Positions 16,753-60,539 of a stretch of DNA of 64,000 nt are shown one piece after another. Source of the stretch: Alviniconcha marisindica. Taxonomy: Eukaryota > Mollusca > Gastropoda > Provannidae. The position numbers and the translations under genes were made by a program. The DNA lies in the NCBI GenBank assembly GCA_018857735.1, contig JABMCL010003054.1, forward strand, positions 560,001-624,000, given 5' to 3'. Positions within the stretch are counted from its first letter, which is position 1, and each line of letters opens with the position of its first letter. The notes beneath the pieces were generated by a model. It worked only from the letters and a program-made list of their open reading frames with translations, made no database searches and was not told the DNA's origin.

Positions 16753-16880
16753 GATTCAGTGTCAACGCTCAACCGACCAAGCTTAAACCGTGACAGGTCG
16801 ACTTGTCTCCCAGTAAACCAAGTTTCGCACGTTCAGGAAGAAAATGGCGGCGAATACAAGATTGCTGTGTTGATGCAGGA
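16753..16880 (-). promoter_or_regulatory. Probable 14-3-3 5' UTR and core promoter with YY1-type motif
   Basis: AAAATGGCGGCG is on the plus strand at about 16,841-16,853, so minus-strand CGCCGCCATTTT lies about 90 bp upstream of the 14-3-3 start codon. This is a frequent core-promoter motif (YY1). No splice acceptor is evident between it and the ATG. Confidence 0.4.
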
Positions 16881-37924: not shown

Positions 37925-39360
37925 TTTGTTGTTTGAAAGCTTGAAGTTCACTAAAACACCTAGATCTAATCATACTAAAGATGTAGTTTTAGATAGCAGC
38001 GTCCATTTTTGTTGCTGTTGTTGGTTTTTCCTCAGATTTTCATACTTTGATGAAAATTTGACTGGTACTTCAGTAGTCTCAGACCAGCGTCTCTGTTCAG
38101 ACTGAATCGCGGTGGTCGACCAGTTGTACAACTTACCACGCTTGGCCTCTGTTTGTGCTTGTTGAACTTGTAGAACTTGAAATTCATAAGGTCTGTAGAC
38201 CCTATGCTTTAGTGTGTGCGACGGCCTTCCTCTCTTTGCAATGCTTCTTGTAGCTGAACCAACTTTAAGTTCACTTGATCGAAACATCCTCGGTGTAGTA
38301 CTAGTAGACTAGTACAGTAGTAGTACTCATTGCCATTGCGGCATTGGTCAGAGTTACATTACTTAAACAGTCCGAAGTCATTTAGGTGTCGATACCACAA
38401 TCTCCAACCAGTCTGAACACTGGCCCTGAGCTCTCAAATCAAGACGAACAAAGGCAAGACCCCCCTTCTTCCCCTCACTTTTTACAAACTGTACCATAAT
38501 TATTATTGCTGTTACGCTTACACTTACAGTTACAGTGCTAGTTGTGGAATGTTGCCCAAACTACTTTGCTTTGTATAAATGCCTAATGGGCTATGGGCTC
38601 CAGTTTGGAGAAACAGCACATAAAAAGTACATTATTATAAAGGAGTATTATTTAAAATTCCAAACTGTGTGTAAAAACTGTAACTGTAAGATTCACTCCT
38701 TTAAATTTTGTAATCTTTATTTTAGGGTGTGAATACCATTTGAAAATGTGCCTAGTGCATGAGACCTTCAATGCTTCATAACTTTTTCACACTATTCACA
38801 GTGATGTAAATAAATAGCCTGGAAACTCAGCTAGGCTCCTCAGTCATCTGTGGAAACTTGATGCCAACAGGCCAGTTTCTGACAGTAGCCTAAGTGTGTT
38901 ATATCAGTCATAAGGCTATGTGTTCATTGGTTGCCATTTTCTCCAAATTCAGCCAGATTCTTCCACAATTAAACATGCTGCCAAGATGTGTTCTTTGCAG
39001 CAAATGGGGCTTAGAGTAAGACAGAGTGAGAGTGTGGTTACCGAGTGGTCAAAAGTGAAAACAGCATTGGCAGAAGTGAGGAGAATAAAGATGGACCGGC
39101 AGAAATTGATACTAGTGTTCCAAATTCTACCGACTGAAAACGAAAGAAAAATCTGTCAAGTGAACAAGATGTGAAAGTCAAGTCTTAACTTCACAGTGCA
39201 AAACTTCAGTCTCCTGTCAAAGTGCCTGGCTCAGTGAGTTTGACTGATTGTATTTCAGCAAAGAGACCAAGACATCAAAAATACGTGCTACAAAGTAACA
39301 AAAAGGATCCAGTCACTTATTCAGAATCACATGTGACATGAGTGTGCAGTAAATCCGCTT
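37925..39360. other. Non-coding, no gene seen
   Basis: Short open frames at 37,857-38,105 and 38,920-39,174 have no recognisable domain. The latter's Lys/Arg-rich end is not followed by a donor that I can support. Confidence 0.4.
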
Positions 39361-39745
39361 GAGAGCTGTAGACATAAGTAAGTAACTTGGTGTTTTACAC
39401 CCAGTCCGCCATTATGGTTAAACATCAGGGCAGTGAGAGCTGCAGACATAAGTAAGTAACTTGGTGTTTTACACCCAGTCCGCCATTATGGTTAAACATC
39501 AGGGCAGTGAGAGCTGCAGACATAAGTAAGTAACTTGGTGTTTTACACCCAGTCCGCCATTATGGTTAAACATCAGGGCAGTGAGAGCTGCAGACATAAG
39601 TAAGTAACTTGGTGTTTTACACCCAGTCCGCCATTATGGTTAAACATCAGGGCAGTGAGAGCTGCAGACATAAGTAAGTAACTTGGTGTTTTACACCCAG
39701 TCCGCCATTATGGTTAAACATCAGGGCAGTGAGAGCTGTAGACAC
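39361..39745. repeat. 74-bp tandem repeat, 5.2 near-identical copies
   Basis: The unit starts GAGAGCTGYAGACATAAGTA and includes GGTGTTTTACACCCAGTCCG. Copies start at 39,361, 39,435, 39,509, 39,583, 39,657 and a partial at 39,731. The GTTTTACACCCAGTC core is the dispersed GACTGGGCATAAAACAC motif seen at 13,365 and 41,435. Confidence 0.95.
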
Positions 39746-39759
39746 AGACTGAGACTAAA

Positions 39760-41400
39760 GAGGTCTTGTAATGAAAGAGTGTATCATGTAGGCTTCATAG
39801 CTTCATCTTCAACTATGAATATGATTTCAGCCCACTTCTTCTACAGGGAGGTCTTGTGGTGATGGAGTGTATCAAAAACTATCATGTGTGATTCTGTGAT
39901 TTCAGCCCATTTCTCCATTCTATGATTTTAGCCCATTTCTCCAACAGAAAGGTCTTGTAATAATGGAGTGTATCATGTAGGCTTCATAGCTTCACCTTCA
40001 ACTATGAATATGATTTCAGCCCACTTCTCCCACAGAGAGGTCTTGTACTAAGCTGTAGTGATGGAATGTATCATGTGTGATAACTATGATTTCAGCCCAT
40101 TTCTCCTACAGAAAAGTCTTGTACTTGTAGCACTTGATGGAATGTATCATGTGTGATAACTATGATTTCAGCCCATTTCTCCTACAGAAAAGTCTTGTAG
40201 CACTTGATGGAATGTATCATGTCTGATTCTATAGACTGTGATTTCAGCCCATTTCTCCAACAGCAAAGTCTTGTACTTGTAGCACTTGATGGAATGTATC
40301 ATGTGTGATAACTATGATTTCAGCCCATTTCTCCTACAGAAAAGTCTTGTAGCACTTGATGGAATGTATCATGTCTGATTCTATAGACTATGATTTCAGC
40401 CCATTTCTCCAACAGCAAAGTCTTGTACTTGTAGCACTTGATGGAATGTATCATGTCTGATTCTATAGACTATGATTTCAGCCCATTTCTCCTACAGAAA
40501 AGTCTTGTACTTGTAGCACTTGATGGAATGTATCATGTGTGATTCTATAGACTATGATTTCAGCCCACTTCTACAGACAGAGCTCTTGTAATGATGGAGT
40601 GTACTATCGTACATGTTTCTATGATTTTAGCCCACTTCGCCTGCAGAGGTCTTGTAATGATGGAGTGTACTGTCAAGTATCATACATGTTTCTGTGATTT
40701 CAGCCCACTTTTCCTACAGACAGAGGTCTTGTAATGATGGAGTGTACTATCATACATGTTTCTATGATTTTAGCCCACTTCTCCTGCAGAGGTCTCGTAA
40801 TGATGGAGTGTACTGTCAAGTATCATACATGTTTCTGTGATTTTAGCCCACTTCTCCTACAGACAGAGGTCTTGTAATGATGGAGTGTACTTTCATACAT
40901 GCATGTTTCTATGATCTCAGCCCACTTCTCCAACAGATAGAGGTCTTGTTGTAATGATGGAGTGTACTTTCATACATGTATGATGTATGATTCTGTCATA
41001 TCAGCCCACTTCTCCAACAGATAGAGGTCTTGTTGTAATGGTAGAGTGAACTTTCATGTATACATGTATGATTCTATGATTTCAGCCCACTTCTCCATCA
41101 GGGAGGTATTGTAATGATGGAGTGTACTTTCATACATGTATGATGTATGATTCTATGATATCAGCCCACTTCTCCAACAGATAGAGGTCTTGTTGTAATG
41201 ATGGAGTGTACTTTCATACATGTATGATTCTATGATATCAGCCCACTTCTCCAACAGATAGAGGTCTTGTTGTAATGGTGGAGTGTACTTTCATGTATAC
41301 ATGTATGATGTATGATTCTATGATTTCAGCCCACTTCTCTAAATAGAGAGAGGTCTTGTAATGATGGAGTGTACTATAAGTATCATACATGATTTCAGCC
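39760..41400. repeat. ~70-85-bp minisatellite upstream of caspase exon 1
   Basis: About 20 degenerate copies carry AGGTCTTGTAATGATGGAGT, GTAC-TTCATACATGTATGAT and GATTTCAGCCCACTTCTCC-ACAG. Each copy therefore has a pyrimidine stretch ending in CAG directly before GAGGTCTTGT. The first coding exon region (TTTTTGCAG at about 41,478, ACTGAAAGAGGTCTTGCAAA) shares this junction. Confidence 0.85.
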
Positions 41401-41546
41401 CAAAATCACCCTGATATAACCGCACTGGTTGACTGGGCATAAAACACTAATTTACGTACTTACTTACATTTTTGCAGACAGAGACTGAAAGAGGTCTTGC
41501 AAACAGCACGAGGGGTCTACAGGAGTACCCTACCATATCTCGCTGA

Positions 41547-44500
41547 ATGGATCCAGCGGACAAGGAGCTGTTGATTCTGCGGCGACCGGAACTGGTTGAG
41601 AACGTTGATGTCACCAATGGCCTCTTCACTCATCTCCTCTCACGCAAAGTGCTCAACAAGCGCATGGTGCAAACTATCACAGTGAGTAGAATCAACACAC
41701 GAGGGAGTTAACTGACTCTCAAAAGACGTCACACAAACACAACAACAAAGACCTGAGTCGCCTTCAGTAACTCTCACATGGCATGCAAGTAAATAATAAT
41801 AATAATATTAATAAAGGGGATTTCTCCACCAGAGGCACATCCGCTCTGGGCCTCATTCTGTTTTAGATTTCAGAATAGTCAAGACGTCTGCTGAGGATGA
41901 TAACTTTCTAAGGGAGGGTCAGGGATGCGTGAACCTAATGATTTTTATTTAATTTGAGAGTTTTTATGTTCTGGTTTGACAGAGAAAGCATTATTCCAGG
42001 TAATTTTGGGTTTGCTATTAGTGTATGCAGATTGAGAGAAAGGGGGTGTATGTCTGAGAATGTGTATGTGCATGTGGTTCATGACTTAGAATTATTGAGA
42101 TATGCTCTTCGTTGTGCGATCGAACGACAGCTTTAATTTCCCGCTGGTATATTGTTGGTATTGGTATTATCACCGTGAGTAGGCTTCAGTTTCTGACGGA
42201 ACTGTCCATTTGCTGTCATGAGTGTCAGTTTATTCTGCTGGTCACTCAGGTAGTGTCTTCCCGTTTTTCTGTCTTTAAATTTATTTTTTAATTAAAAAAT
42301 TCAAAATACTTTATATAATATCAGTGATTTAAAGGTGAAGTTTTTTGCTTAATAAGTTTTTCTTTCTTGCTTATGAATTATCTATAAATTAGTTATCCAG
42401 AAAACGTAGAGAATGTCCAAATATTTTCATTTGCAGACATCACTTATTTATTTTGTGAATATTAATTTATGCAGTAGGACTAGCAGTAGTTATTTTGCCT
42501 TGAATTTGAGCTCACTCTCTACTTGTGAGTAAAAAGCAGACAAATGTTGGCTCATGATGTACACTTCTCCTAGTCCTGTACATGCTGGTCTTCTTCTTTG
42601 TTTGTTTGGTGTTGTCTAATATGACTGTGATGTGAACTGCCATAAAATAAAACATTCGACATTGGATTGGTCTTGTTCATGTCAGAGATGCTGTCTGGCA
42701 AACTTAAAATGGCCACACCTGTGGCCATGTTTTTGTGACTCTCAAAAGAGTCGAAAGTCAGATGTTGATTTTCAACAAACTGGACCACAGACTGATTGAT
42801 TGTCTTTCCCAGAGGAGGGGGAAGGGGGGGGTGTCTTTTTATTTTTTTTAAATTTCAGTCCATTCCACATCTACCAACTGGGCTTATAATGCTTCTCATT
42901 TGGGGACCCCTTTGAAGTAACCTGATTTTCATATAAATTACAGTATCTCCCACTTGTACAGTACCTTGTTGTGTTGTATAATCTATAAGCTACATGCCTT
43001 TTGCGCAAGTATTTGTTATGTTCTGCTGTAAAGCGCCAAGAAAAGAATTTTGTCTGAAGGGGTTCCACAATGCTAAGGTAACTAACAGGTTTTTAAGACA
43101 GACGGTGACAGAATTTCGAAGATGTGTGACTTCACGTGCATGCACCTCCCAGTCTTCAGTGCATGCAGAGCATGCTGTGCATGACATCATCACGACCACG
43201 CCTACGGATTCCAGGTGCTGCTGAAAAACCCACCCAAAAAAAACCCAGTTTGGTTTCAGAGCTTTTTCCAGCTCTGCCTCCAAGCCCTGGAATGCTCTAC
43301 CACAAACAGTCGGGGAAGCACACTCCTTGGTGGCATTTCTCAAATGTCTGAAAACCCACCTGCTCTCTGAATGACTTTTGCACCATGTGTCTGGGGGGGG
43401 GGGGGGGTTCTATAGATTAATTATAAGTTTCTATTCTCCCCCCCCCAACTTTCATTGCATCAAGTTAATGAAATCATGTGCTATAAAAGTGGACGTCATC
43501 GTCATCATCAAGCATAGTTCAGGAGCTGTGTGAGAGTCGAGGTGGCCGTCCTGGGCTGTCCGTCCTAACGAGCCTTTTGGTTTCCGTGGACGTAAAGCTA
43601 TATTGAACCATGCTTCGGCATTGGTCTCAGCTTGTCCCTAATATGTCAACTGACATCTGAGGACATTAAGCAACACTACCTACCTCCCTACCATCATCAC
43701 GACATGGTTTTGGTTCCCTGTTTTTCAGTACAACAACCCTCCAGATAGACAGGTGGAGGAGCTGCTGGACCTGCTTCCGAAGCGAGGTCCAAACGCCTTC
43801 AAGCTTTTCTGTGACTCCCTCGTCGCCACTGACCAGCAAGATGTCGTGACGAACATTCTTCAGAAGAAGGACGGTGTGGAAACATCTTCGTCCTCTTCCT
43901 CACTGGCAGCCGCGTCAGTGCCAGCATCACCTCTGCCAGACGCTGTTGCAGAAACAGCGGATGTTTCTCTTCCTGGTGGCGTCCCGGTGGCATCTGCCTC
44001 ATCATCAGCACCTGTTTTAGGTTCATCACCATTGCCTGCATCAGTTCAGGCATCATTTTTGTCAGCCTCTGATCCATCATCCCTTGATCCGTTGCTAACC
44101 AGCTCTCCCACCACCCCTCACAAACGTAAGCCAGTGAAAAGTGCCAGAGAAGCTTCTGAGCACGACGACAAATCCCATTTAGCCAGCCCGTCAGAAACAG
44201 ACAGCTCATCAGTGAAACGTATTTGCACAGACTCTGGCTCAGTGATATGCATCCGCGGTGACAACGAACATGTGATCAAGATTTATAGCCCACAGCAGGC
44301 GGACAAGAAGGGGAATCACTCTCAAGACAAACATGTGTTCGAATCTAGTAATCCTCAGAGATCTTTTGCAATTCCAAAGCTCCTACCTGGCGGTGAAGCA
44401 ACAGCAAATCAAGGTGCATGCAGGACGGATGAAATTCGTTACGTCATGAAGCACTTCATTCAGAACGAGAGAGATGAGGATAGGCGGCAGGCCGAAAATG

Positions 44501-45607
44501 TTCGCCTTGCCACGTCCATGCTGTCAAATCTCCCACAAGAGTATCTGAAACTGCTGTCGACCAGTCAGCCCTCCCTGTCCAAGATGACAAGGGACGAGGA
44601 CTTTTCTCACGATCTGTTGAGCGAGAGGCTTTCTCGTTGTGACTCCGCAGGTAAGATATATGTGCAATATGTGTTTTGGTCTGCTGTGATGTGGGATATA
44701 TATATAATGTTCAGCCACATATTTAGTTTTTCTGATGAGGTAATAAAGTAATCTTGAACTTAGATATGTGTGTGTGTGCATGTATGAAGTAGTACAGTAC
44801 TCCTGTACATGTGAAACAATGGTTGACATTTTGGTATAAGCAGAAAAATAGTATGCCTGTGAAAAGATAAGTGACATCTAGTTGACAGCAATTAAAAAAG
44901 TCAGTTATTAAAGAAAAATTGAAACAGCTATGTTGCACTGAGTGAATTCTGTCAGTATGGTATCACTGTCAGTTTGTTTAGCGTAAGAAGTTAAGTGATT
45001 GTAACTCACCTCGAAAAGAGGTCTAGATTGTCTCAGATTTATTTCTCCCTAGGACTCTGTACAGAGGATTCACATTAAGGGTATTGAACTGGATAAAGGC
45101 AGACTATTGCTGTGTTTATACAGGAAATAAACGATATATTCATGATTATTCTGGAGAAGAGCAATCCGTAATTGATTGGACCTGCCTAGTGTTATTCCGT
45201 TTGGTCGTGTTTCATTTTGCTTCTTTGCCATGGGCTAATGGGAAAAGAATTGATATGGCATTTCTACAGTCACTTTTACCTTATCAGATAATGAAGTAAC
45301 TATGTGTTTTGCCTGTGGCAAAGTGGCCTGCATTTGCTTTTTCGCAAGGGAGGTAAGCGGCAAGGTCAGTGGGTGCACAGTGAAGATGGGTACAGTGAGT
45401 TATACTATAATAATAATTGTGGTAATTTCTATCGCACCATATCTCACCAGCAAGGGTGAGCTCACCACACTCTACAGGATCAACAATAACATATATATAT
45501 ATTAAAAACTCAAAAATAATCAATTATCGAGTCATAATATTTATATCATATTCCTCAAAAATAATTATGGAGTCATAATATTTATATTGTATTCCTCGCA
45601 TGCACAC

Positions 45608-45681
<74 letters not shown>

Positions 45682-46222
45682 GAAATGTAACAAGGGGTGA
45701 GAGAGGAAAGTAAGAAGACAGAATTTGAAATCACTTGTGGTATTGTTTGTAGAGGAGAGTTTTTAAAGCAGTTTTGAAGGTGTAGGAGGATTGAATGTGA
45801 ATATGTAGTAGACTGATAGCTATTGTTAGATGATTCTGGCATTTTGACTTTGTATTATTTATGTTTGTGATTTGGTCAAGCTGAGTGCTTGGAAAGTGCA
45901 TACAATTTGGGCAACTGATGTCATGAACACAGGTGATACACTTGCAGATACCATGGAAACAAGAAAGCCCAAAGACCTGAGACTTGATGCCAACAAAAAG
46001 CCTGGTATGGTTTTATTGGGTTTTTGTGTAGGATGCATATAATAGGACTTCTTACAAATAATATGAGGTTTTAATTTATTTTATTGGAAACGGAATCTCA
46101 CCTTGCTGTTAACAAAATCCTGTTTCTATCAAAATGCTTGATGCTCCCCCTCCCCCCTCCTCCCTCCCCCCCACTTTACAGATGTGCTGTGTGTGTGTGT
46201 GTCTGTGCATAATATATATATA

Positions 46223-46285
<63 letters not shown>

Positions 46286-49200
46286 CATTTAAAGTAGGTC
46301 TTGCCCTTTTAGCTTCTTTCATTGGAATTGCTCGTAGTCGTTGTTACTCAACTTCTTGTGGTTTTCCATTTGAGGGATCTTAAGAGTTAAGGTGTATGTG
46401 GTTTATATTCAAGTTTTGTCCAATGCACCCAGCTCTGCTTCTCTTAGTGGTAGCACTTTATAAATAGTTGTGTCATTGTTGCTATTTTTGGCCTGGGTTT
46501 CTCAGCGGAAGTGGACCAGCCAGACCAGTCGGTGGTGAGGGTTGGCAGCATGGTGACACCAGTGCCCCCTGGTGTTGCACTGGGGAAAGCCCTGGACTAC
46601 ACGGACGGACCGCTCTGTGTTCAGGTGGAGGAGTGCTCCCGCCAGTTCTACAACCTCAACAAGGACAAGGTCGGTCTGCTTCGTCTTGTCAGCATTGCTC
46701 TCATCTGTACTGTGAAAGTAGCTAATGATAATAATATTGGGGTCTTGGAGTACAGTCCCCTTTATGAGGTAAGTGGTAGGAGCAGCCAGTGACAGTAATA
46801 TTGCAGCCTTAGAGTGCCGTTTCTAAGGTAAGCTGTAGGAATGGCAAATGATAATAATGTTGGGGTTTTAGATGTTAGACTTAGAGCACCCTTTCTGAGG
46901 TATGCCGTAGGCATGGCAAATGATAATAATATTGGGGTCTTAGAGCACACTTTCTGAGGTAAGCCGTAGGCATGGCAAATGATAATAATACTGGGGTCTT
47001 AGAGCACCCTTTTTGAGGTAAGCCGTAGGCATGGCAAATGATAATAATATCAGATTTTAGAGCACCCTTTCTGAGGTATGCCCTCGTGCGTAGGAGGGCA
47101 AATGATGATAATATTGTGGTCTTAGAGCGCCCTTTCTGAGGTAGACCGTAGGTTTGGCAAATGATAACAATATTGTGGTCTTGGAGCACCCTTTCTGAGG
47201 TAAGCCAACGGAGTGGCAAATGATAATAATATTGAGGCCTTCGAGCCTCCTTTCTGAGGTAAGCTGTAGTATGGCAAATGATAACAACATTGGGTCTTAG
47301 AGCACCCTTTCTGAGGTAAGCTGTAGCATGGCAAATGATAACAATATTGGGTCTTACAGCACCCTTTCTGAGGTAAGCTGTAGCATGGCAAATGATAACA
47401 ATATTGGGTCTTACAGCCTCCTTTCTGAGGTAAGCTGTAGCATGGCAAATGATAACAATATTGGGTCTTACAGCCTCCTTTCTGAGGTAAGCTGTAGCAT
47501 GGCAAATGATAACAATATTGGGTCTTACAGCCTCCTTTCTGAGGTAAGCTGTAGCATGGCAAATGATAACAATATTGGGTCTTACAGCCTCCTTTCTGAG
47601 GTAAGCTGTAGCATGGCAAATGATAACAATATTGGGTCTTACAGCCTCCTTTCTGAGGTAAGCTGTAGCATGGCAAATGATAATAATATTGGGTCTTACA
47701 GCACCCTTTCTGAGATAAGCCCTCAGAGGGCAAATGATAATAATATTGGGGTCTTGGAGTGCCCTTTCTGAGGTAAGCTGTAGCATGGCAAATGATAATA
47801 ATATTGGGTCTTACAGCACCCTTTCTGAGGTAAGCTGTAGCATGGCAAATGATAATAATATTGGGTCTTACAGCACCCTTTCTGAGATAAGCCCTTAGAG
47901 GGCAAATGATAATAATATTGGGGTCTTGGAGTGCCCTTTCTGAGGTAAGCTGTAGCATGGCAAATGATAATAATATTAGGTCTTAGAGCACCCTTTTTAG
48001 GTAAGCCCTCACACGCAGGAGGGCAAATAATAATAATATTGGGGTCTTGGAGCCCCCTTTCTGAGGTAAGCCGTAGGCTTGGCAAATGATAATAATATTG
48101 GGGTCTTAGAGCGCCGTTTCTGAGGTAAACCGTAGGAGTGGCAAATGATAATAATATTAGATCTTAGAGCACCCTTTCTGAGGTAAGCCCTCATGCGTAG
48201 GAGGGCACATGATGATATTGTGGTCTTAGAGCGCCCTTTCTGAGGTAGACCGTAGGAGTGGCAAATGATAATAATTTTGGGGCCTTGGAACCTCCTTTCT
48301 GGAGTAAGCTGTAGGCCTGGGAAATGATAATGATATTGCTGTCTTAGAGCACCCTTTCTGAGGGTAAAGCCGTCACACGTACATTTCACTATCAAGCTTA
48401 AACAGTGGACATCAAAACACACAATATTAACGTACACAAATTTGTAATCAGTATTTAATAATAATAATAATAGATCATTTTTGTATAGCGCTATTCTCTG
48501 GTGTACCCAAACTCACTGCGCTTTACAACATTCTCCGACATTTTCTAAGTTTCACAAACATAATACATATAATTATGACAACTAACAATGTATAATATAC
48601 AAGTACATGTGCCATATGAGAAACAGCAATATATAAAGAAAATGAATCATTATATTACTACCTACCCATAATTCCATCTTGTAATGTATCATCGTATGCT
48701 ATCCTAAAAGGCAACCAAAATAAAAGACATAAAGTTTTAAATGCTTGATGATGATGCCAGAAACAAAATATGGATGATGTGTTTGTGCAATTGAACAGTA
48801 ACATCATTAAAAAACAACAACACAAAACTTGAAGAAATGTTTTTTTCTTTCCTTTTTTGTCAAAGGTAACTTGTGGGATTAAGAACTGTTGTGTTCTTTT
48901 CTGTTGTGAACAGTTTAATTACACTTTTTGGCCCCAGATTCATGTCATAGCCTTGAACACTGTCAGCCGGTAGACAGGTCTGAATTTTCAGTACTGAAGC
49001 GAAAGTTTAGAATTTGGTATTTGGATTACTTCAGTTAGTGAGTTTACCATGTTTTGTAAATTGGTGGATTGTCCTGTGCCATGTTTTGTGAATTGGTAGA
49101 TTGTTCTTTACCATGTTTTATAAATTGTTGCATTGTCCTTTACCAAGTATTTTTGAAATGGTAGAATGTCCTTTACCATGTTTTGAAAAGTGGTGGACTG

Positions 49201-52200
49201 TTCTTTACTATGATTTGTAAATTGATCAGGTTTTTGGGTTGTTGTTTTTACCATATTTTGTAAAGTGGTAGACTGTCCTTTGCCATGTTTTGGTAAAGTA
49301 GTGGACTGTTATTTACCACATTTGGTAAGTTATCAGTTTATTTTATTTTATATTTTATGCATGTGTGTTTGTTTTTACACTGTGTTTTGTAAATTGTTAC
49401 GTTGCTTTTTAACAATATTTTGTGAATTGTTTGTGTTCCAGTCGTACCGCATGATCGGGATACCACGAGGCCAAGCCCTCATCATCAACGTCAACGAAGT
49501 ATCAGAGAAGCCCCCTCGACGAGGCACGGACATCGATCGGGACAACCTCAACAACCTGCTGACCCAGCTACACTTCCAGGTCACCATCTATAATGATAAC
49601 GACGACCTCACCGCTCTGGTAAGTGTGTCAACATTATGCAGTTTTTTGGGGTGTTTTTTTGGTCAGTAGATGAAATTCCTCCAACGGAGTAGAAGGAGGG
49701 GTTATTGTGTGTGTGTGCATTATTAAATTAGGCTGTGTTTTATTGTTGTAATGTTTCACAGATAGCGCTTCTAGCCTCACGCATGCATTTGTTATTATTG
49801 TTAAGAACAGAGAAATGTACTAAACTGTGTTTGAGTAGTACTTTCTAGGGCAGTGTTTTGACAGCCAATTTTTGAATTTCCACTGAAACTAGTATCTCTT
49901 GTGGTTCGAATAGACCCCTTTCATTTATCTTGCTGTTGCACAGTGACAACCACTACAAAGTTCTGCGACTTGTCCAAAGCGGACATAGGGGGAATGTGCT
50001 GTCAGTGTCACTGACTTCATGCATACTGAGATCTGACCGGACTGAATCATTTTGGTTGCCCGCAGACTTAGTAAAATTTCACGTTCATTGACTTGGTTTA
50101 CTGAGAAAGAAGCTCCAGCACCAGGCTGGCCGTTGTCATCATTTTTTATATATATTTTTTTCTCTCCTCTCAGGTGAGCAAGGTGGGGATGGGGGCTATC
50201 TGCACTTGTGATCCAAGTGCTCGCGACCCGCCTGTGTGTGTGAAGGGGGGGTTCGTGCATGTGTGTGTGTGTGTGTGCATGCAGGTGACTGAGTGTAAGG
50301 GTGTTGTATTTCAGTGTGTGTCTGTGTAGTGCGTTTCACGGTTAACTGGGTATAAAAAAAAACGAACTGTTGGATTAGACAAATAAATCGCTCCTCATCC
50401 AAACAGGGAATGGTGGAAAAGCTGCGGGAGTTTGCCGCCCGGACGGAGCACGCAAGTTCCGACGCCTGCATCATCTGCCTCCTGAGTCATGGGGAGGAAG
50501 GGTTCATGTTCGGAACGGACGGCAAAAAAATCCCGCTGGAGGAGATTTTCCTGCTGTTTGACAACCGCCACTGCCCCACCCTCCTCAACAAACCCAAGAT
50601 CTTCTTCATCCAAGCGTGTCGCGGAGGTGAGTTTGGATGGAAGTGCTGTGTTGAAGAGGTTTAAGAGGTGCTCCCGTTTTTTGACGGTGACTGCTGTGTG
50701 AGTTTCCCCAACTAACCCAAGATCTACTCCAAGTGTGTCTTGGAGGTGAGTTTTAATGGAAGCACTGTCTTGATGTTGTTGTCGATGTTGATCGCTTTTA
50801 TATAGTGCTATTCTCAAACGGACTCACTGCACTCACATGTGATTCTTTGTGAGTGACTAGCTTTTTATAGCGCCTTTTTAAATATCCACTGAAGTGGTGG
50901 ACTTACAGCGCTGACATAGGTGGTGCCAGGTGAAACTGCTGCCATCTCAGCGCGTTCTGTGTACACTGTGCAACCATGCAACATTTCACTCCATGCAAAG
51001 CCACATGCATAAGGTGCATGTGTGTTTATCTGTAATCTGCCATCTGCACTCTTGGCAGAATGACTGGGATCTTTTGCGTGCTACTGCGGTAACACAGAGG
51101 TGGAACAGATGTTGAAATGAGAGTCAGCACAGAAAGTTGACCCTGGAGAAGAAAATTATCCTGCAGAGACTTGAACCTGTGACCTTTCATTAGTTTCAAT
51201 CACGAGTCTGGCACTCTAACCACTGAGCTGTCCCCACGGTTGAAGATGTTTAGGAGGGTTTTTGTTGTTTGAGTTGACTCATTAAGATTGAATCTTTTCA
51301 GCTTACCTCATCAGATAACACTTTGACCAGAAATAGCTTCTTTTCAGCATCCTCTGGTAGTAGTATTTGATGTCCCCCACCCCCCACTCCCCAAAGCACT
51401 TTGAGTTGAAAGTGCTCTGTAAAATCCTTGTTATGATTAGTGATAGTAGCTTTATGTGGGGCCCCCCACACCCCCCTTCCCCCCTCCTTAAATCACTTCG
51501 AACTGAAAGTGCTCAGTAAAGTCCTTGTTATCATTACTGGTAGTAGCATTACGTGGTGTTTCTTCCCCTCTTAAAGTGAACTGTTTGTGGTTGTGACGCT
51601 GTCAGGTCCCTGTCATTACTGGTAGCAGCATTACGTGGTGTTTTTCCCCCTCTTAAAATGAACTGTTTGTGGTTGTGATGCTGTCAGGTCCCTGTCATTA
51701 CTGGTAGCAGCATTACGTGGTGTTTTTCCCCCTCTTAAAATGAACTGTTTCTGGTTGTGATGCTGTCAAGTCCCTGTCATTACTGGTAGTAGCATTATGT
51801 GGTGTTTTTCCCCGTCTTAAAATGAACTGTTTGTGGTTGTGACGCTGTCAGGTCCCTGTCATTACTGGGAGTAGCATTAAGTGGTGTTTTTCCCCGTCTT
51901 AAAATGAACTGTTTGTGGTTGTGACGCTGTCAGGTCCCTGTCATTACTGGGAGTAGCATTAAGTGGTGTTTTTCCCCTCTAAATGTGAACTGTTTGTGGT
52001 TGTGACGCTGTCAGGCATGCTGGACCACGGAGTGAAGGTCCAGCACGACGAGCCGGACGGGGGAACGGCGCCGGTGCACAACAACAACATGGTGCAGCAC
52101 CCCTCCATGTCCGACATGCTCATCTGCTACCCCACGCTGCAAGGTGGGTGCTGCACACCTCCTGTGCTGGGACTGAGGGGTCGGGTTGTTCAAACAGTCG

Positions 52201-55200
52201 TCTGAAAGCTCACTAGCTGCAGAGTGTGAAGGGTCAGATTGTTCAAACAATCATCTGAAAGCTCACTAGCTGCAGAGTGTGAAGGGTCGGATTGTTCAAA
52301 CAATCATCTGAAAGCTCAATAGCTGTAGAGTGTGAAGGGTCGGATTGTTCAAACAATCATCTGAAAGCTCAATAGCTGTAGAGTGTGATGGGTCAGATTG
52401 TTCAAACAATCATCTGAAAGCACAATGGCTGTAGAGTGTGAAGGGTCAGATTGTTCAAACAGTTGTCTGAAAGCTCACTAGCTGCAGAGTGTGAAGTGTG
52501 AAGGGTCGGATTGTTCAAACAATCGTCTGAAAGCTCAATAGCTGCAGAGGGTGATAGGTTGGATTGTTCAACAGTCATCTGAAAGCTCGCTAGCTGTAGA
52601 GTATGAAGTGTGAAGAGCCAGATTGTTCAAACATCTGAAAGCTCAATAGCTGTAGAGTGTGAAGGGTCAGATTGTTCAAACAATCATCTGAAAGCTCAGT
52701 AGCTGTAGAGTATGAAGTGTGAACAGCCAGATTGTTCAGTCATCTGAACACTCGAGTACTAGCTGTAGAGTGTGAAGGGTCAGATTTTTCAAACAGTTGT
52801 CTGAAAGTTCAGTAGCTGTAGAGTGTGACAGGTCAGATTGTTTAAACAATCTGAAAGCTCACTGGCTTTAAGGCGTGAAATCTGTCAAAGCCTCCTGTTG
52901 CGGTTTGTTACAAAGGGGTTTGAGGCAATTTTGTGCTGTTGAGCATTAACCGCTGAAAGACGATGCAGTTGTGGGCTTTTATTGAGATGTTGAAATGTGT
53001 TTGTTTTTTGCTTTTTCGTTTTTCATTGCTTTGAAATCAACACACAAGGGCATTAATTAGCGCTCAAAAGACGTCACACACAAACACAACAACAAAGACC
53101 TGATTCGCCTAGAGTAACTGTCACCTGGCAAGCAAAAGTAAATATGCATGGTACATAAACTCCACCAGAGGTACATCCTCTGTTGGATATTTGAAGATGT
53201 ACCTCCGGTGGAGTTTATGTACACGCATGCCAGGTGAGAGTTACCGTGGGCAACTCAGGTCTTTGTTGCTGCGTTTGTGTGCGACAGCTTTTGAGCGCTA
53301 ACTAACTCCCTTGTGTGTTGATTCTGCATGAGTGGTCAGGGCCTTGTTCCATTTTAGATTGCGTTTTCATTGTTTTCTGTTGTTAAAAAAACAAGAAGAA
53401 AAAAAAGTAACGTTAAGTTGTTATTCAGACTGCAAATATACTACACTGATTTTGTATGGCCAGGCTTCTTCCAGTTTTCAGAATGCTGTGTTGATCATAC
53501 ACAACCATGCTATTCCCTGTTTTCACACTGCCATGCTGATTGTACACAGCCAGAATGTTCTGGGGTTTTTTTTTCCTTCAGATTAATATGTTGACCATAC
53601 ATAGGATGGTGTGTCGTCAGACGTCTATGGTGATCTTGTACAACCAGGCTGTTCCCTGTTTTCAGGCTACTATGTTAACCATACACAACCAGGCTGTTCC
53701 CTGTTTTAAGGCTACTGTGTTGATCATACACAACCAGGCTGTTCCCTGTTTTGAGGCTACTGTGTTGATCGTACACAACCAGGCTGTTCCCTGTTTTCAG
53801 GCTATTATGTTGATCATACACAGCCAGGCTGTTCCCTGTTTTAAGGCTACTGTGTTGATCATTCACAGCCAGGCTGTTCCCTGTTTTAAGGCTACTATGT
53901 TGATCATACACAACCAGGCTGTTCCCTGTTTTAAGGCTACTGTGTTAATCATATGCTACCAGGCTGTTCCCTGTTTTAAGGCTACTATGTTGATCATACA
54001 CAACCAGGCTGTTCCCTGTTTTAAGGCTACTATGTTGATCATACACAACCAGGCTGTTCCCTGTTTTCAGGCTACTATGTTGATCATACACAGCCAGGCT
54101 GTTCCCTGTTCTTCAGGCTACTATGTTGATCATACACAGCCAGGCGTTCCCTGTTTTCAGGCTACTATGTTGATCATACACAACCAGGCTGTTCCCTGTT
54201 TTAAAGGGTAATATGTTGATCATACACAGCCAGGCTGTTCCCTGTTTTCAGGCTACTATGTTTTGATCATCACACCAGGCTGTTCCCTGTTTTAAGGCTA
54301 ATGTGTTGATCATACACAGCCAGGCTGTTCGTTTCCTCTTTTTTTCAAGGTTCCCTGTTTAGGCTATATGTTGATCATACACAACCAGGCTGTTCCCTGT
54401 TTTAAGGCTACTATGTTGATCATACACAGCCAGGCTGTTCCTGTTTTAGGCTACTTGTTGATCATAACACCAGGCTGTTCCCTGTTTTAGGCTAATGTTG
54501 ATCATAACAGCCAGGCTGTTCCCTGTTTTAAGGCTACTATGTTGATCATACACACCAGGCTGTTCCCTGTTTTCAGGCTACTATCGTTGATCTACACAGC
54601 GGCTGTTCTTTAGCTCTGTGTCTTCATAACGCCAGTGTCTGTCTAAGCTACTCTGTGCTCATCTCAACCAGGCTGTTCCCTCTCTTCTACTCTCTTCTGT
54701 CTCTCTCCGCTTCTCTCCTGCTTCTTCAGCTCTTTCTACTACACACCCTGTTCCCGTTCTTCTACTTTGCATCTCACTGCCCCACCTTTCCCTCTTCTCC
54801 TCCCTCTTGTCTCTCCGCCGCTGACTACCCTGTCTTCACTGAACATTGTGTCTTAACTGAATGCTGTATTGTACTGTCTTGCTGAACGCTACTGTGTTGT
54901 ATTGTCGTGCTGTCTAACTGAACATTGTGTGTTGTATTGTCGTGCTGTTTTATTGAAAGCTGTATTGTACTGTCTTACAGAACACAATGTGTTGTATTCT
55001 CATACTGTCTTACTGAACACTGTGCGTTGTATTGTCATGCAGTCTTACTGAACGCTGTATTGTACTGTCTTACAGAACACAATGTGTTGTATTCTCGTAC
55101 TGTCTTACTGAACACTGTGTCTTGTATTGTCGTGCTGTCTTACTGAACACTGGGGCTTACCAAACACTGTACTGTACTGTCTTACTGAACATTGTGTCTT

Positions 55201-56084
55201 ACTTTACGCTGTCCTGTACTGTCTTACAGAACACTATGTGTTGTATTGTCATGCTTTCTTACTGAACAATGTGTCTTACTGAATGCTGTATTGCACTCTT
55301 ACAGAACACAGTGTGTTGTATTGTCGAGCTGTCTTAATGAACATTGTGTGTTGCATTGTCATACAGTCTTATTGAACATTGTGTCTTACTTAACGCTGTA
55401 TTGCACTGTCTTACAGAACACAGTGTGTTGTATTGTCATGCTGTCTTGTTAAGCACTGTATGTTTTGTTACTGAAGTTGAACTCTGCATCTCACACAGTT
55501 CACTGTGTGTGTGTTACAGAGCACTGTATCTTCGCACTGTTTGCGTTTGCCAGGTGAACAGTGATGTGTGTTACAGAGCACTGTATCTTTGCACTGTTTG
55601 CATTTGCTTTGCCAAGTGAACAGTGACGTGTGTTACAGAGCTCTGTATCTTTGCACTGTTTGCCAGGTGAACAGTAACATGTGTTACGGAGCTCCGTATC
55701 TTTGCCCTGTTTGCCAGGTGAACAGTGATGTGTGTTATGGAGCTCTGTATCTTTGCACTGTTTGCCAGGTGAACAGTGATGTGTGTTACAGAGCTCTCTG
55801 TCTTTGCACTGTTGGCGTTTGCCATGTGCCATGTGAATAGTGATGTGTGTTAAAGAGCTCTGTATCTTTGCACTGTTTGCCAAATGAACAGTGACATGTG
55901 TTACGAAGCACTGTATCTTTGCACTGTTTGCATTTGCCAGGTGAACAGTGACGTTTCACGCAAAGTGTCTCGAACGCCTCAGTTGGAGATGGACAGAATG
56001 TCGCAGATGTCCGAGTACAAGAGCTCTCTACGACAACCATATCTCTTCTTCTTCCCCGGCATTAGCACACCCTCCATGAAATGA
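41547..56084 (+). CDS. CARD-containing initiator caspase (caspase-2/9-like), one catalytic-domain exon not found
   Basis: Coding exons 41547-41681, 43729-44650, 45948-46004 (optional), 46506-46669, 49442-49618, 50407-50626, 52015-52143 and 55941-56084 have GT-AG borders and matching phases up to exon 7. The protease would initiate apoptosis in the cytosol after CARD-driven assembly. Residues 1-94 form a CARD; 95-350 are a Ser/Ala-rich linker. The large subunit follows: PRGQALIIN, PPRRGTD (S1 arginine), CLLSHGEEG with catalytic His513, and FFIQACRGG with catalytic Cys556. PSMSDMLICYPTLQG opens the small subunit, and the last exon gives MSEYKSSLRQPYLFFFPG to the stop. Between YPTLQG and VNSDV about 35-40 residues are missing, including the S1/S2-S4 pocket motifs (SWRN, GSWF). 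Exon 7 ends in phase 1 but the last exon begins in phase 0, so an exon is lost or unassembled. I am sure of the family; the subtype is uncertain. Confidence 0.9.
41688..41885 (+). repeat. Dispersed repeat family D
   Basis: AATCAACACACGAGGGAGTT, AAAAGACGTCACAC, ACAACAAAGACCTGAGTCGC and CCACCAGAGGCACATCC match the 53-kb and 20-kb copies. It begins 7 bp inside caspase intron 1. Confidence 0.85.
41890..43020. other. Caspase intron 1 body, nothing recognisable
   Basis: AT-rich sequence without exon-like frames, RNA genes or clear repeats. Confidence 0.4.
43030..43380 (+). mobile_element. LINE C-terminal scrap in caspase intron 1
   Basis: Plus-strand text near 43,255-43,375 reads FFPALPPSPWNALPQ-like then VREAHSLVAFLKCLKTHLLSE with one frame change. 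This is the usual C-terminal end of CR1/Jockey-type RT proteins (compare WNSLPQDLR...LKTFLF at 2,804). Catalytic RT motifs are absent. A poly-G tract follows at 43,387-43,408. Confidence 0.6.
43505..43685 (+). repeat. Family C copy just before caspase exon 2
   Basis: From ATAGTTCAGGAGCTGTGTGA to GAGGACATTAAGCAACACTA, nearly identical to 6,785-6,965. It ends about 45 bp before the exon 2 acceptor. Confidence 0.9.
45610..45680. repeat. (CA)n microsatellite in caspase intron 2
   Basis: About 35 CA dinucleotides. Confidence 0.95.
45948..46004 (+). other. Candidate 57-nt cassette exon of the caspase
   Basis: ACACTTGCAG precedes and GTATGG follows a 57-nt open segment encoding TMETRKPKDLRLDANKKP. 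Both borders are phase 1, so inclusion or skipping leaves the frame unchanged, as expected for an alternative exon in the linker between CARD and protease domain. Confidence 0.5.
46210..46282. repeat. (AT)n microsatellite
   Basis: About 36 AT dinucleotides with one phase slip near 46,229. Confidence 0.95.
46715..48370. repeat. 57-bp minisatellite downstream of caspase exon 4
   Basis: About 28 copies of a unit with GGCAAATGATAA-AATATTGGG, TCTTACAGC or TCTTAGAGC, and ACCCTTTCTGAGGTAAGC. The first copy starts only about 50 bp after the exon 4 donor. The 57-bp period keeps both strands open (minus-strand frames of 278-301 codons), which I do not regard as genes. Every unit carries CTGAGGTAAG, close to a consensus 5' splice site. 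Confidence 0.95.
48465..48560. repeat. (AAT)n plus GCGCT-type repeat scrap
   Basis: AATAATAATAATAGATCA, then GTATAGCGCTATTCTCTGG and CTCACTGCGCTTTACAAC, as at 56,555 and the left ends of the family A SINEs. Confidence 0.55.
49035..49440. repeat. ~40-bp minisatellite abutting caspase exon 5
   Basis: Eight or more decayed copies of TTTACCATGTTTTGTAAATTGGTGGATTGTCC. The last recognisable piece (TTTTGTGAATTGTTTGTG) merges into the exon 5 acceptor TTCCAG at 49,441. Confidence 0.75.
50650..50775 (+). pseudogene. Partial tandem copy of the 3' end of caspase exon 6
   Basis: At 50,711-50,775, AACCCAAGATCTACTCCAAG, TGTGTCTTGGAGGTGAGTTT and ATGGAAGCACTGTCTTGA repeat the exon 6 end and its donor (50,590-50,650: AACCCAAGATCTTCTTCATC, CGTGTCGCGGAGGTGAGTTT). 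The copy has lost the catalytic QACRG codons' frame, so it is a pseudo-exon. Confidence 0.75.
50785..51240 (-). mobile_element. tRNA-derived SINE (family A), full length
   Basis: Minus-strand tRNA head at about 51,165-51,237 (box B complement near GAGACTTGAACCTGTGACC, box A complement near CTCTAACCACTGAGCTGTCC). The body to the left has GGTGCATGTGTG, CTGCCATCTCAGCG and TTTTATATAGTGCTATTCTC. Confidence 0.85.
51522..52014. repeat. 82-bp minisatellite ending exactly at caspase exon 7
   Basis: Six copies of the unit GTCCCTGTCATTACTGG, GTAGCATTACGTGGTGTTTT, CCCCCTCTTAAAATGAACTG and TTTGTGGTTGTGACGCTGTCAG have starts at about 51,523, 51,605, 51,687, 51,769, 51,850 and 51,932. The sixth ends at 52,014, the AG acceptor of exon 7. 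More decayed copies may begin near 51,350. Confidence 0.9.
52165..52870. repeat. ~59-bp minisatellite just after caspase exon 7
   Basis: About 12 copies of GGGTCRGATTGTTCAAACAATCATCTGAAAGCTC and ACTAGCTGTAGAGTGTGA. The first begins about 30 bp after the exon 7 donor. Each unit contains an inverted pair GATTGTTC/GAACAATC-type core. Confidence 0.9.
53036..53335. repeat. Head-to-head pair of family D copies (foldback)
   Basis: The left arm (53,036-53,176) runs ATCAACACACAAGGGCATTA, GCGCTCAAAAGACGTCACAC, AAAGACCTGATTCGC, CTCCACCAGAGGTACATC. The right arm (53,190-53,327) runs the reverse complement back to TGTGTGTTGATTCTGC. The arms differ at several sites, so this is an old foldback or two insertions. 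Confidence 0.85.
53440..54640. repeat. 45-bp minisatellite in the caspase last intron
   Basis: About 25 copies of TTGATCATACACAACCAGGC, TGTTCCCTGTTTTMAGGCTA, CTATG. Copies at 53,640-54,200 are regular and keep a 223-codon frame open. From about 54,200 copies show many 1-4-base deletions and insertions, such as lost bases in CATCACACC and CATAACAGCC. Confidence 0.95.
54641..54850. other. CT-rich non-coding stretch
   Basis: Pyrimidine-rich sequence with no repeat unit. The expected missing caspase exon (SWRN...GSWF) is not here in any frame. Confidence 0.5.
54851..55485. repeat. ~33-36-bp minisatellite
   Basis: About 18 copies of CTGTCTTACTGAACACTGTG, TSTTGTATTGTCRTG. Some units read CTGTCTTACAGAACAC, a splice-acceptor-like string. 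Confidence 0.9.
55490..55940. repeat. ~53-60-bp minisatellite carrying the terminal exon acceptor
   Basis: Seven to eight copies of GTGTTACAGAGCTCTGTATC, TTTGCACTGTTTGCCAG, GTGAACAGTGAYGT. The last CCAG is the acceptor of the caspase terminal exon, whose first bases GTGAACAGTGACGT are the repeat sequence itself. Confidence 0.95.
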
Positions 56085-57261: not shown

Positions 57262-57365
57262 TGTGAGCCGGTTTGGCCTAGTGGTAAGGCGTTAGGCTGG
57301 TAAGCGGAAGGACCTCGGTTCGATGCTGCTTTGGCTCTCCTTTCTCTTCAAAAATGATCACACAT
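57262..57365 (+). mobile_element. tRNA-derived SINE (family B), truncated
   Basis: GTGAGCCGGTTTGGCCTAGT, GGTAAGGCGTTAGGCTGGTA, GGACCTCGGTTCGATGCTGC, then TTTGGCTCTCCTTTCTCTTC. The body is cut off. It is preceded by a TA run. Confidence 0.85.
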
Positions 57366-57599: not shown

Positions 57600-58340
57600 C
57601 TGTCCTGTGGTTTCAAGTGTTTGACGCTTGTCGGCCCAGTCTCTCCATGGTCTACAGCTCTGATGCCTGTCAACCCAATCTCTCCATGGTCTACAGAGTT
57701 CAATGCCTGTCAACCCAATCTCTCCATGGTCTACAACATTTGATGGTCGTTGACCCAATATCCCCATGGTCTACAGCATCTGATGCCTGTCGACCCAATC
57801 TCTCCATGGTCTACAGCTTTTGACACTTGTCAACCCAATCTCCCCATGGTCTACAGTGTTTGATGGTTGTTGATCCGATCTTTCCATGGTCTACGGTGTA
57901 TGATGGTTGTTGACCCAATATCTCCATGGTCTACAGCATCTGATGCCTGTCAACCCAATCTCTCCATGATCTACAGTGCTCAATGCCTGTCAACCCAATC
58001 TCTATGGTGTGCAGTGTTTGACACGCGTCAGCCCAGTCTCTCCATAGCCTACAGTGTCTGATGTCTTCTGTCAACTCGCTCTCTCCATGGTCTACAGTGA
58101 GGCCTGTCAACCCAATCTCTCCATGGTCTACAGTGTTTGATGGTTGTCGACCCAATCTTTCCAGTCTACTGTGTCCAGTGGTTGTCAGCTTTGATGTTTG
58201 TTGACCTAATCGCTTTGGACTACAGTGCTTGGTGCATATGGGCCCAATCTTTCGGTGGTCTACAGTGCTTGATGCGTGTAGACCCAATCTTTCCATGGTC
58301 TACATACAGTGCTTGATGGTTGTCGTCAACAGTGTTATCA
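57600..58340. repeat. ~40-bp minisatellite
   Basis: About 17 copies of TGTCAACCCAATCTCTCCAT, GGTCTACAGTGTTTGATGCC with variable length. It lies 1.5 kb after the caspase stop. Confidence 0.9.
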
Positions 58341-58811
58341 CCATAATCATGGTCATCGTCATCAGGGGTTCAGGCAGACAATGTCCCATTTACAAGCTGC
58401 ATCTGTACATCAGCAGCCAGTTAAATGTGACCCTACCTTCCAAAATGAGTCACACTGATACTGTTTGTGATTTTTCAGATATTTGTATCACAGTAGAGAG
58501 CACAGCATTCTCTTTAAAATGATCAAAATCGGTTCTCTGGTCTTGTTATTATAACAGTTTGAAGTCACAACCACCACAGCATCTCATTCTGAGAAATTGG
58601 CAAACAATGTTTTCAGCATAATTATAATTATAATAATAATGGAAATTTGTAAAGCGCCTACCCTGCGGCTCAAAGCGCTGAACAAGCATAGTATGACACA
58701 CATAATGTCCATCGAGATGGAAATGTTATCAGCAATAAAAATGTATATGAGAAAAAAAGAAAAAGCTAACACATGTAGGTAAGGGTTCAAATGTAACACA
58801 ATGCAAAAGAT

Positions 58812-58847
<36 letters not shown>

Positions 58848-59088
58848 TGTCCTTAGCAACAAACAGATGCTTGCTTCAAACAACCTTCGGTAATATTTCT
58901 AAACATGTTTTATGCATAAGCAGTACAATGTGTGATGCAAAAAAGACCAGGGAATCGGATTTTGCTGAAAACCCCAAATCTAAAAAAATAGAAGTTCCCT
59001 TTAAAAATAAACCACAGTGAGAAAGTGACCTAGTTTCCATCCAAATCATTTCAAAAGGCAGGGTCACAAATCTGAACAGACTTGGTGT
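58341..59088. other. Non-coding with (AAT)n/GCGC scrap and (CA)n
   Basis: A GCGCCTACCCTGCGGCTCAA scrap after (TAA)n at 58,618-58,690 and a CA run at about 58,812-58,842. No gene seen. Confidence 0.5.
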
Positions 59089-59092
59089 TTAA

Positions 59093-59318
59093 CCCTTTCA
59101 CTGCCATCGTCTCTTGAAAACAACCTGTAAAAGTGAGAAATTTGAAACCCTTAAGGCTTTTTGTTTTCTTTTTCGCACTTGCATGCGAAAGGATTTTCAC
59201 CACAACACATGACATAGCATTGAAAGTAGATGTTTTATAGGACCGAAAAATGTACTGTTTGCTGGCACGTCCTGCATCATTCAGCTCGGAAATTTTAAAT
59301 GCTGGGGCAGTGAAGGGG
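59093..59318. mobile_element. 226-bp piggyBac-like MITE with TTAA target site
   Basis: TTAA at 59,089-59,092 and 59,319-59,322 flank inverted ends CCCTTTCACTGCC and GGCAGTGAAGGGG (12 of 13 match). No coding sequence. Its ends differ from those of the 7,735 element, so it is another subfamily. Confidence 0.8.
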
Positions 59319-59322
59319 TTAA

Positions 59323-59984
59323 CACTTTGTCCAGATGATGTGATACTATTGAGAATGATGGGGTTTGTTTTTCTGTGATGTTTTCATAATACCATACTGA
59401 ACCAAACTGATGTTAAAAAAAAAATGAAGAAGAGAGAAATGTTTTGTGTGTGAACTGTTGTCAGCAAAGAACTGTACCTGGTGTTCACAGACCACTGTGC
59501 TATTGACAGTAACTTGATTTGATAAAAGTAGACTTGTTATGATTATTAACCAAAGAAAAAACTAAGACATGTTTGATGATTTTTTTGTTGTGTTCCTTTT
59601 CTGTTAGTTCTTTTATGAAGATTTTTTTATATTTTTTTTTTGCAAATGAGAAATTATTTTGAAATCCTTGGCTGATTTGTTCGAAGGGTGTACAGTGGAT
59701 GTATTTAATTTTTACAATTTGGCAACACTTTTTGTTGTTGACATTCCTGTTAAAAAATGATAATTTTTGTTTGTTTGTTTGTTTTTAACAATTTCTTGTG
59801 TGTAAGATTTTTGGTTTGATATCTGTATAATTACTTTGTACATTTTGTTGTTGTAATTTTATGTGTGCAAGAGTTTGTTTTACTTTCTGCGTGACTGGTT
59901 TGTGGAGTTAAATGGGAACCACATCCAACTCCAAGGCAGCAGGCTGGCCTGAAAATGTACAGAGTGGGCAGGTATTTTACCTGA
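59323..59984. other. Non-coding, no gene seen
   Basis: T-rich sequence with short homopolymers only. Confidence 0.45.
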
Positions 59985-60455
59985 TGCCAGCTTGGCATGA
60001 GTGAACTTTGGCTTTGGAAATTGCATGATGCAAGCTTGCATGAGTTAACTCGGGCATGGAAATATGCATGGTGCAAGCTTGCCTGAGTAAACTTTGGCAC
60101 GGGAAGGTGCATAGTGCAAGCTTGCCATGAGTAAACTTAGGTGTGGGAAGGTGCATGATGCAAGCTTGCCGTGAGTAAAGTTAGGCATGGGATGGTGCAA
60201 GCTTGCCATGAGTAAACTTAGGTGTGGAAAGGTGCATGATGCAAGCTTGCCATGAGTAAACTTTGGCAAGGGAAGGTGCGTGATGAAAGCTTGCTGTGAG
60301 TCATCTCAGGCATGGGAAGGTGCGTGGCGCAGGTTTGCCATGAGTAAACTTTGGCATGGGAAGCTGCATGGTTCAAGCTTGCCATGAGTAAACTTTTGGT
60401 AATGGAAGCTGCGTGATACCAGCTTGGCATGAGTAAACTTAGGTACTGAAAGCTG
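59985..60455. repeat. ~43-45-bp minisatellite
   Basis: About 10 copies of TGCAAGCTTGCCATGAGTAA, ACTTTGGCATGGGAAGGTGC. It reads as a repetitive His/Ser frame on the minus strand. Confidence 0.9.
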
Positions 60456-60539
60456 CATTGTACTCTTTATGCCATTGGCACCTCCAAGTTTTCGTCTGAG
60501 CCACTGAGCCTTAGCATTAATTGTACAATGAGGTAGCCC

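Follow-up and report, generated by a model that had tools for sequence, protein, structure and literature searches.

The caspase locus and its tandem arrays

The window analysed in this work (the whole stretch of 64,000 nt) comprises positions 560,001-624,000 of contig JABMCL010003054.1 (C365) in the assembly of the gastropod Alviniconcha marisindica, which was searched as 817.6 Mb in 2806 contigs, and contains a caspase-2-like gene whose introns carry a series of tandem arrays (Table 1). The closest protein in a protein search was that of Littorina saxatilis (86% identity in the part searched); next among the matches with species names came those of other caenogastropods. CARD and caspase domains are present in the closest relatives. 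Exons were first read from the sequence and were then confirmed with the Littorina protein, by tblastn and by an assembly-wide search; in the latter, all matches to the Littorina query with E <1e-13 lay on this contig and weaker ones were mostly paralogues. Extension of exon 4 by 99 nt, in frame, to a strong donor at 46,768 was ruled out, and the donor at 46,669 was preferred because the orthologues run on across this donor without an insert.

Tandem Repeats Finder (TRF) detected all six arrays (A-F) that the initial annotation had placed against caspase exons, at coordinates close to those it had given. The unit sizes it had listed were right in part, the list having neither the 32-bp unit of array C nor the 51-bp unit of array F. 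Beyond its list lie arrays G and H, a duplication at the exon 6 donor and an exon missing between 52,143 and 55,941. The view that the arrays are unrelated and do not belong to a single mobile family held up in the sequence sampled, a subset of the genome: two-unit probes of arrays A-H each matched their own array only (BLAST, E 1e-4).

The repeated unit was said to include the splice junction itself in the clearest cases, and this applies to some of the arrays. Units of array F include the acceptor of the last exon and its first 14 exon nt, and the unit of array D contains the acceptor of exon 7, at which the array stops with 1 exon nt included. In array A the units combine a C/T-rich stretch, in many cases with CAG, with a degenerate version of the exon 1 start; the first unit (39745-39771) matches 41475-41502, a segment that extends into exon 1 by 25 nt (score 39; shuffled sequences at most 23). 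The units of arrays B and E, by contrast, contain no true donor. In array C the end called by TRF is 49,357, and a decayed unit extends to 49,429 without an AG (score 29; shuffled sequences at most 22). The exon 6 donor, together with the 45 exon nt before it, has been duplicated once, the two copies lying 123 nt apart. Across the caspase gene, two borders were touched by an array (within 10 nt) against 0.14 expected from random placement (P 0.007), in a gene that had been picked for this pattern.

Decoy splice sites of the kind proposed by the initial annotation are present in the sequence. With provisional position weights, 18 donor-like GT sites in 46,670-48,370 scored at least 6 bits, whereas the true donor of exon 4 scored 1.87 bits, and the three best acceptor copies in array F reached 4.8-6.0 bits, above the 2.9 bits of the true acceptor. 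Read in the last exon's frame, array F is interrupted by stop codons over most of its length; use of the decoys there would truncate the protein and be harmful, so that the true site must prevail as a rule. Repeats of 17 residues form an open frame at 55565-55840 of this array, but this frame does not run on into that of the last exon, and array F was dropped as a source of in-frame protein repeats because of the stops.

Table 1. Coordinates of the caspase exons, tandem arrays and associated features within the window
Feature	Coordinates	Strand	Basis and remarks
74-bp array upstream of array A	39360..39744	+	TRF; unit includes part of a dispersed repeat, matches six other loci
Array A, upstream of exon 1	39745..41396	+	TRF 39,761-41,396, main periods 76-88
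Fragment of a dispersed repeat, array A to exon 1 interval	41409..41462	+	Inverted relative to the array at 39360
Caspase exon 1	41478..41681	+	ATG at 41547; orthologue residues 1-45; acceptor at 41478 and 5' end of the exon (untranslated region) read from sequence only
Caspase exon 2	43729..44650	+	Orthologue matches
Caspase exon 3, 57 nt	45948..46004	+	Homology to DTMETRKP of the orthologue
Caspase exon 4	46506..46669	+	Weak donor AAG/GTCGGT at 46,669 (1.87 bits)
Array B, 57-bp unit	46721..48363	+	TRF, probe; repeated GAG/GTAAGC donor-like sites
Array C, 32/65-bp unit	49043..49429	+	TRF periods 32/33 and 65; decayed towards the exon 5 acceptor
Caspase exon 5	49442..49618	+	Orthologue matches
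Caspase exon 6	50407..50626	+	Orthologue matches
Source copy of exon 6 duplication (last 45 exon nt and donor)	50582..50654	+	Border test, score 71
Second copy of exon 6 end and donor, within intron 6	50705..50773	+	Border test
Array D, 82-bp unit including the exon 7 acceptor	51516..52015	+	TRF, probe
Caspase exon 7	52015..52143	+	Orthologue matches; ends after 1 base of a codon
Array E, 53-bp unit	52174..52879	+	TRF, probe
Array G, 45-bp unit CTGTTTTCAG/GCTACTATG...	53460..54608	+	Putative acceptor with the bases predicted to open the missing p10 exon
Expected site of the missing p10 exon	54609..54848	+	Decayed units, C/T-rich; no exon found
Array H, 35/95-bp unit	54850..55461	+	TRF, probe; no exon assigned
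Array F, 51-bp unit	55521..55954	+	TRF, probe, border test
Last caspase exon, with stop codon	55941..56084	+	Orthologue matches; starts in phase 0

Chaperonin genes as an unselected sample

In 27 loci taken around the caspase matches and the window, some of them overlapping, minisatellites (period at least 20, length at least 100 bp) cover 16% of 218 kb, with single stretches ranging from 0 to 50%. Minisatellites being this common in the sampled loci, CCT chaperonin genes were taken as multi-exon controls. Six genes that had not been chosen for arrays were modelled with exact borders (50 introns, 100 borders, 29 arrays), and the expected number of borders near an array edge was obtained by placing the arrays at random inside the same introns in 5000 simulations.

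An array edge lay within 10 nt of, or overlapped, 12 of the 100 borders (5 donors and 7 acceptors) against 2.0 expected, a number reached in 0/5000 simulations; array ends thus lie nearer to exon borders than expected, as the initial annotation had anticipated for the assembly at large. Corresponding values were 14 against 4.5 within 25 nt and 17 against 6.9 within 40 nt (0/5000 each). Arrays touching a border within 10 nt were found in every gene (CCT7 4/7, CCT1 3/5, CCT2 1/8, CCT3 2/5, CCT5 1/2, CCT4 1/2), and the pattern, initially described for one caspase gene, therefore recurs in each of the six.

Copying of the borders was measured with 75-nt segments, of which 19/100 had a copy in the adjoining intron. 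A copy spanning the junction itself, with at least 4 nt on each side, was present at 14/100 borders, at least one in each gene (CCT7 4, CCT3 3, CCT1 2, CCT2 2, CCT5 2, CCT4 1), and donors (5/50) and acceptors (9/50) did not differ in this respect (Fisher P 0.39). Central exon segments (41-75 nt, with somewhat less power) gave no copy in either neighbouring intron in 72 tests on 36 exons, and an earlier exon-interior control on partly the same exons gave 0/26. The copies range from some junctions with just two or three to longer rows: an acceptor of CCT5 with about 45 coding bases has, by eye, about three copies ahead of the true one, and one CCT3 exon has arrays at both ends, with 26 and 35 exon nt copied.

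An apparent sparing of donors (acceptors 10/39, donors 3/40), seen when the ends of profile matches served as borders, was dropped, as it fails with exact borders. A preliminary strict junction count was likewise superseded: some decoy AGs had been used as borders, and its interior control (3/46, 0/47) had overlapped copied exon starts.

In a caspase-like paralogue on another contig (C1471), two acceptor arrays were recognised by eye, one with a score (47) above the threshold and one with a score (32) below it. The 9.9-kb stretch that holds this gene (L009, 1-9901) consists of minisatellites for 50% of its length.

Origin of the arrays

The arrays are best explained, with a probability of about 0.8, as splice-junction minisatellites of the kind described as mirages in amphioxus, array G being the array of a p10 exon lost from the assembly. 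In the mechanism that we propose, a short local tandem duplication would happen across an exon-intron border, so that the splice site is copied along with a few to about 45 exon bases. The working border would stay with the copy closest to the exon, and the remaining copies would sit in the intron, where they would multiply and drift like the genome's other minisatellites; the array would therefore end at the exon and its units would resemble the true splice site. The donor case would be the mirror image of the acceptor case. If exon definition operates, each exon being recognised as a whole, the exon-proximal copy would pair with the far end of the exon and be the one spliced, so that the rest of the array would be tolerated as nearly neutral DNA and could grow. 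The two-copy duplication at the exon 6 donor may represent a first step towards such an array.

Several observations weigh against this explanation. The six caspase arrays had been described as lying directly against coding exons, and only D and F reach the junction. Array A ends 81 nt short of the exon 1 acceptor, with a dispersed-repeat fragment between them; array B starts 52 nt downstream of the exon 4 donor and array E 31 nt downstream of the exon 7 donor, and neither unit includes the donor; and array C is a weak case that hardly includes the exon 5 junction. The choice among copies is predicted from the sequence. Within the control sample, two acceptor matches in CCT1 share only 1 exon nt. 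The sample itself is one gene family, and some of its loci cover only part of a gene; CCT7 and CCT1 were modelled from Babylonia orthologues, and CCT2, CCT3, CCT4 and CCT5 from provisional protein probes, with the last intron of CCT1 (one border pair) placed by hand. Three further CCT loci were left out: L031, whose single array lies 417 nt away from the closest exon match, L034, which has none, and the gene on C1227. Finally, under the same criterion as the borders, 79/312 random intron points had a local copy against 19/100 borders, which speaks against preferential seeding at junctions.

Duplications across splice junctions are common in these genes and survive. Whether they also start there preferentially was judged with tolerant nulls, in which the arrays could overlap into exons by 15, 30 or 45 nt: 4.0, 5.6 and 6.9 touched borders were expected against the 12 observed (0/5000, P 0.003 and P 0.021, respectively). 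The proposal of the initial annotation that duplication is seeded at exon borders is thus moderately supported, the excess over tolerance being itself moderate, and it runs against the comparison with random intron points. Splice junctions may be hot spots of duplication, for instance through transcription- or splicing-linked breaks or through the C/T-rich tract before acceptors, an explanation that we regard as possible and somewhat doubtful. The touched borders exceed all three tolerant nulls, and the acceptor side taken alone gave P 0.040 at 45 nt; the donor side alone was not significant (P 0.14 at 30 nt, P 0.25 at 45 nt), the 45-nt null gave P 0.13 when three genes were used and reached P 0.021 with six, and border segments are repeated no oftener than random intron points. 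The further-reaching idea, that in this snail lineage duplication starts preferentially at junctions and about one in seven junctions carries a live and changing row of decoy splice sites and copied exon edges, a continuing source of new exon ends and perhaps introns, is put forward tentatively and is rather unlikely.

Maintenance by selection, in which the arrays would regulate splicing or keep alternative splice sites in store, appears improbable from the sequences. Decoys often match the true site in strength (arrays B and F), as it would predict, but arrays are equally common at random intron points and five orthologous proteins show no repeated insert at these joints; the stops in array F, through which decoy use would truncate the protein, lower its odds further. 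That long-read assembly created or inflated the arrays is very improbable. One local failure does occur in the window, where a conserved exon was not found at an indel-rich site; against an artefact, the copies differ among themselves, the units are locus-specific, the arrays lie on many contigs with readable adjoining exons, and an assembly error would not copy borders yet spare exon interiors (0/72). Least credible is a mobile or introner-like element whose copies brought the splice sites with them. A dispersed repeat is present inside the array at 39,360 and between array A and exon 1, but no dispersed relatives of the A-H units were found at other loci in the sampled sequence, and many CCT units contain exon bases of their own host gene; a single-element origin was rejected because the units match their own arrays only.

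If the rate of 14/100 junctions in these six genes is typical, the whole genome would serve as a natural experiment in which the spliceosome has to tell the true site from neighbours of equal or greater strength, and would also test whether copies turn into new exon ends or introns.

A missing exon and array G

Exon 7, which ends one base into a codon, runs into a stop within a few codons when joined directly to the last exon, which begins in phase 0, and the orthologues carry extra residues between the two (GYYAWRNRERGSWYIEAVVRVFMKHAKCEDICAMLNR in Littorina). These p10 residues had no convincing match in the 64-kb window (best E 0.51, located elsewhere), and among the best candidates, which were scored, the p10 part of the Littorina query had no match in the assembly search and a caspase profile placed p10 parts on other contigs and none on C365.

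Phase and protein together predict that the missing exon starts with G/GN TAY TAY G. The motif AG/GNTAYTAYG occurs 11 times on the plus strand of the window, 11/11 inside array G, and was tested after the array G unit had been noticed, even though it follows from phase and protein. The exact sequence TTTTCAGGCTACTATG is present in only 4 units of array G, and AAG replaces CAG in many. Since all 11 occurrences of the predicted exon start fall there, the most plausible reading of array G is that it belongs to the acceptor of the absent p10 exon, which would be expected at about 54,609. Indels called by TRF rise from 2% in 53625-54330 to 10% in 54350-54608, and beyond this the units are unrecognisable.

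Drop-out of the exon from the assembly is more likely than real loss from the gene, as the remaining exons are readable and Littorina-like. Exons between arrays may likewise be missing from other genes in the assembly. The case is a warning that assemblies can lose exons lying between such arrays; at this locus the first bases of the exon appear to survive only in array G.

Relation to known systems

Available portions of two reports on amphioxus (PMC3087553, PMC3902484) describe mirages in Adh3, globins, TnC and PGBD5 as minisatellite-like tandem duplications of exon-intron borders that affect both donors and acceptors, with AG/GT signals in many but not all units and with unit lengths of 10-72 bp in Adh3 and about 150-160 bp in the globins. 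Set beside these portions, the snail arrays are likewise tandem and minisatellite-like (TRF), their repeated unit spans the border (at 14/100 CCT borders and, in the caspase gene, in array F and at the exon 6 donor), and both donors (5/50) and acceptors (9/50) of the CCT genes are affected. Unlike the amphioxus examples, caspase arrays B, C and E do not span the border and array D has 1 exon nt. The snail presumably represents another phylum, and its 14/100 junctions come from six unselected genes, in contrast to single lancelet genes. Splicing and length instability were examined in amphioxus, whereas the snail arrays are known from the sequence of one assembly. On this evidence the anatomy of the snail arrays is already known from amphioxus, and their frequency is what stands out.

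The human ABCA7 intronic variable number tandem repeat (PMC5954066) is built of 25-bp units, each with a splice donor at its start, and retention of a single unit occurs. Unlike the snail arrays, it concerns one locus in one gene in the context of human disease, and the portion consulted mentions no duplication of exon bases. Intron gain by tandem genomic duplication has been reported for potato RdRp (PMC4974935) and was modelled by Rogers (as cited in PMC3087553). In the portions of these sources consulted, tandem duplication is linked to splice signals, as it is in the snail, but there a new intron arises, whereas the snail arrays lengthen existing introns and the caspase joins agree with the orthologue protein. 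No report of mirage-type arrays in molluscs was found in a literature search that was only partly directed at molluscs and that returned mostly the beginnings of abstracts.

Other features of the window

The dispersed repeat near exon 1 flanks array A in opposite orientations and has relatives at window positions 12981 and 13339 and at several other loci (for example L033, L035 and L026). Beyond the last caspase exon, three arrays with 40-, 44- and 48-bp units (57616-61869, starting at 57,616, 59,982 and 60,576) are tied to no exon. A Pfam scan of the three plus-strand frames of one stretch gave no match, and Rfam and tRNA scans of the 64-kb window were empty. The segment at 57265-57335 resembles by eye the head of a tRNA-derived short interspersed nuclear element, and ARAGORN finds no tRNA in the window. 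Two further features are long open reading frames: that at 15985-16755 on the minus strand resembles a 14-3-3 protein, and that at 25350-26408 on the plus strand resembles a sugar-nucleotide transporter.

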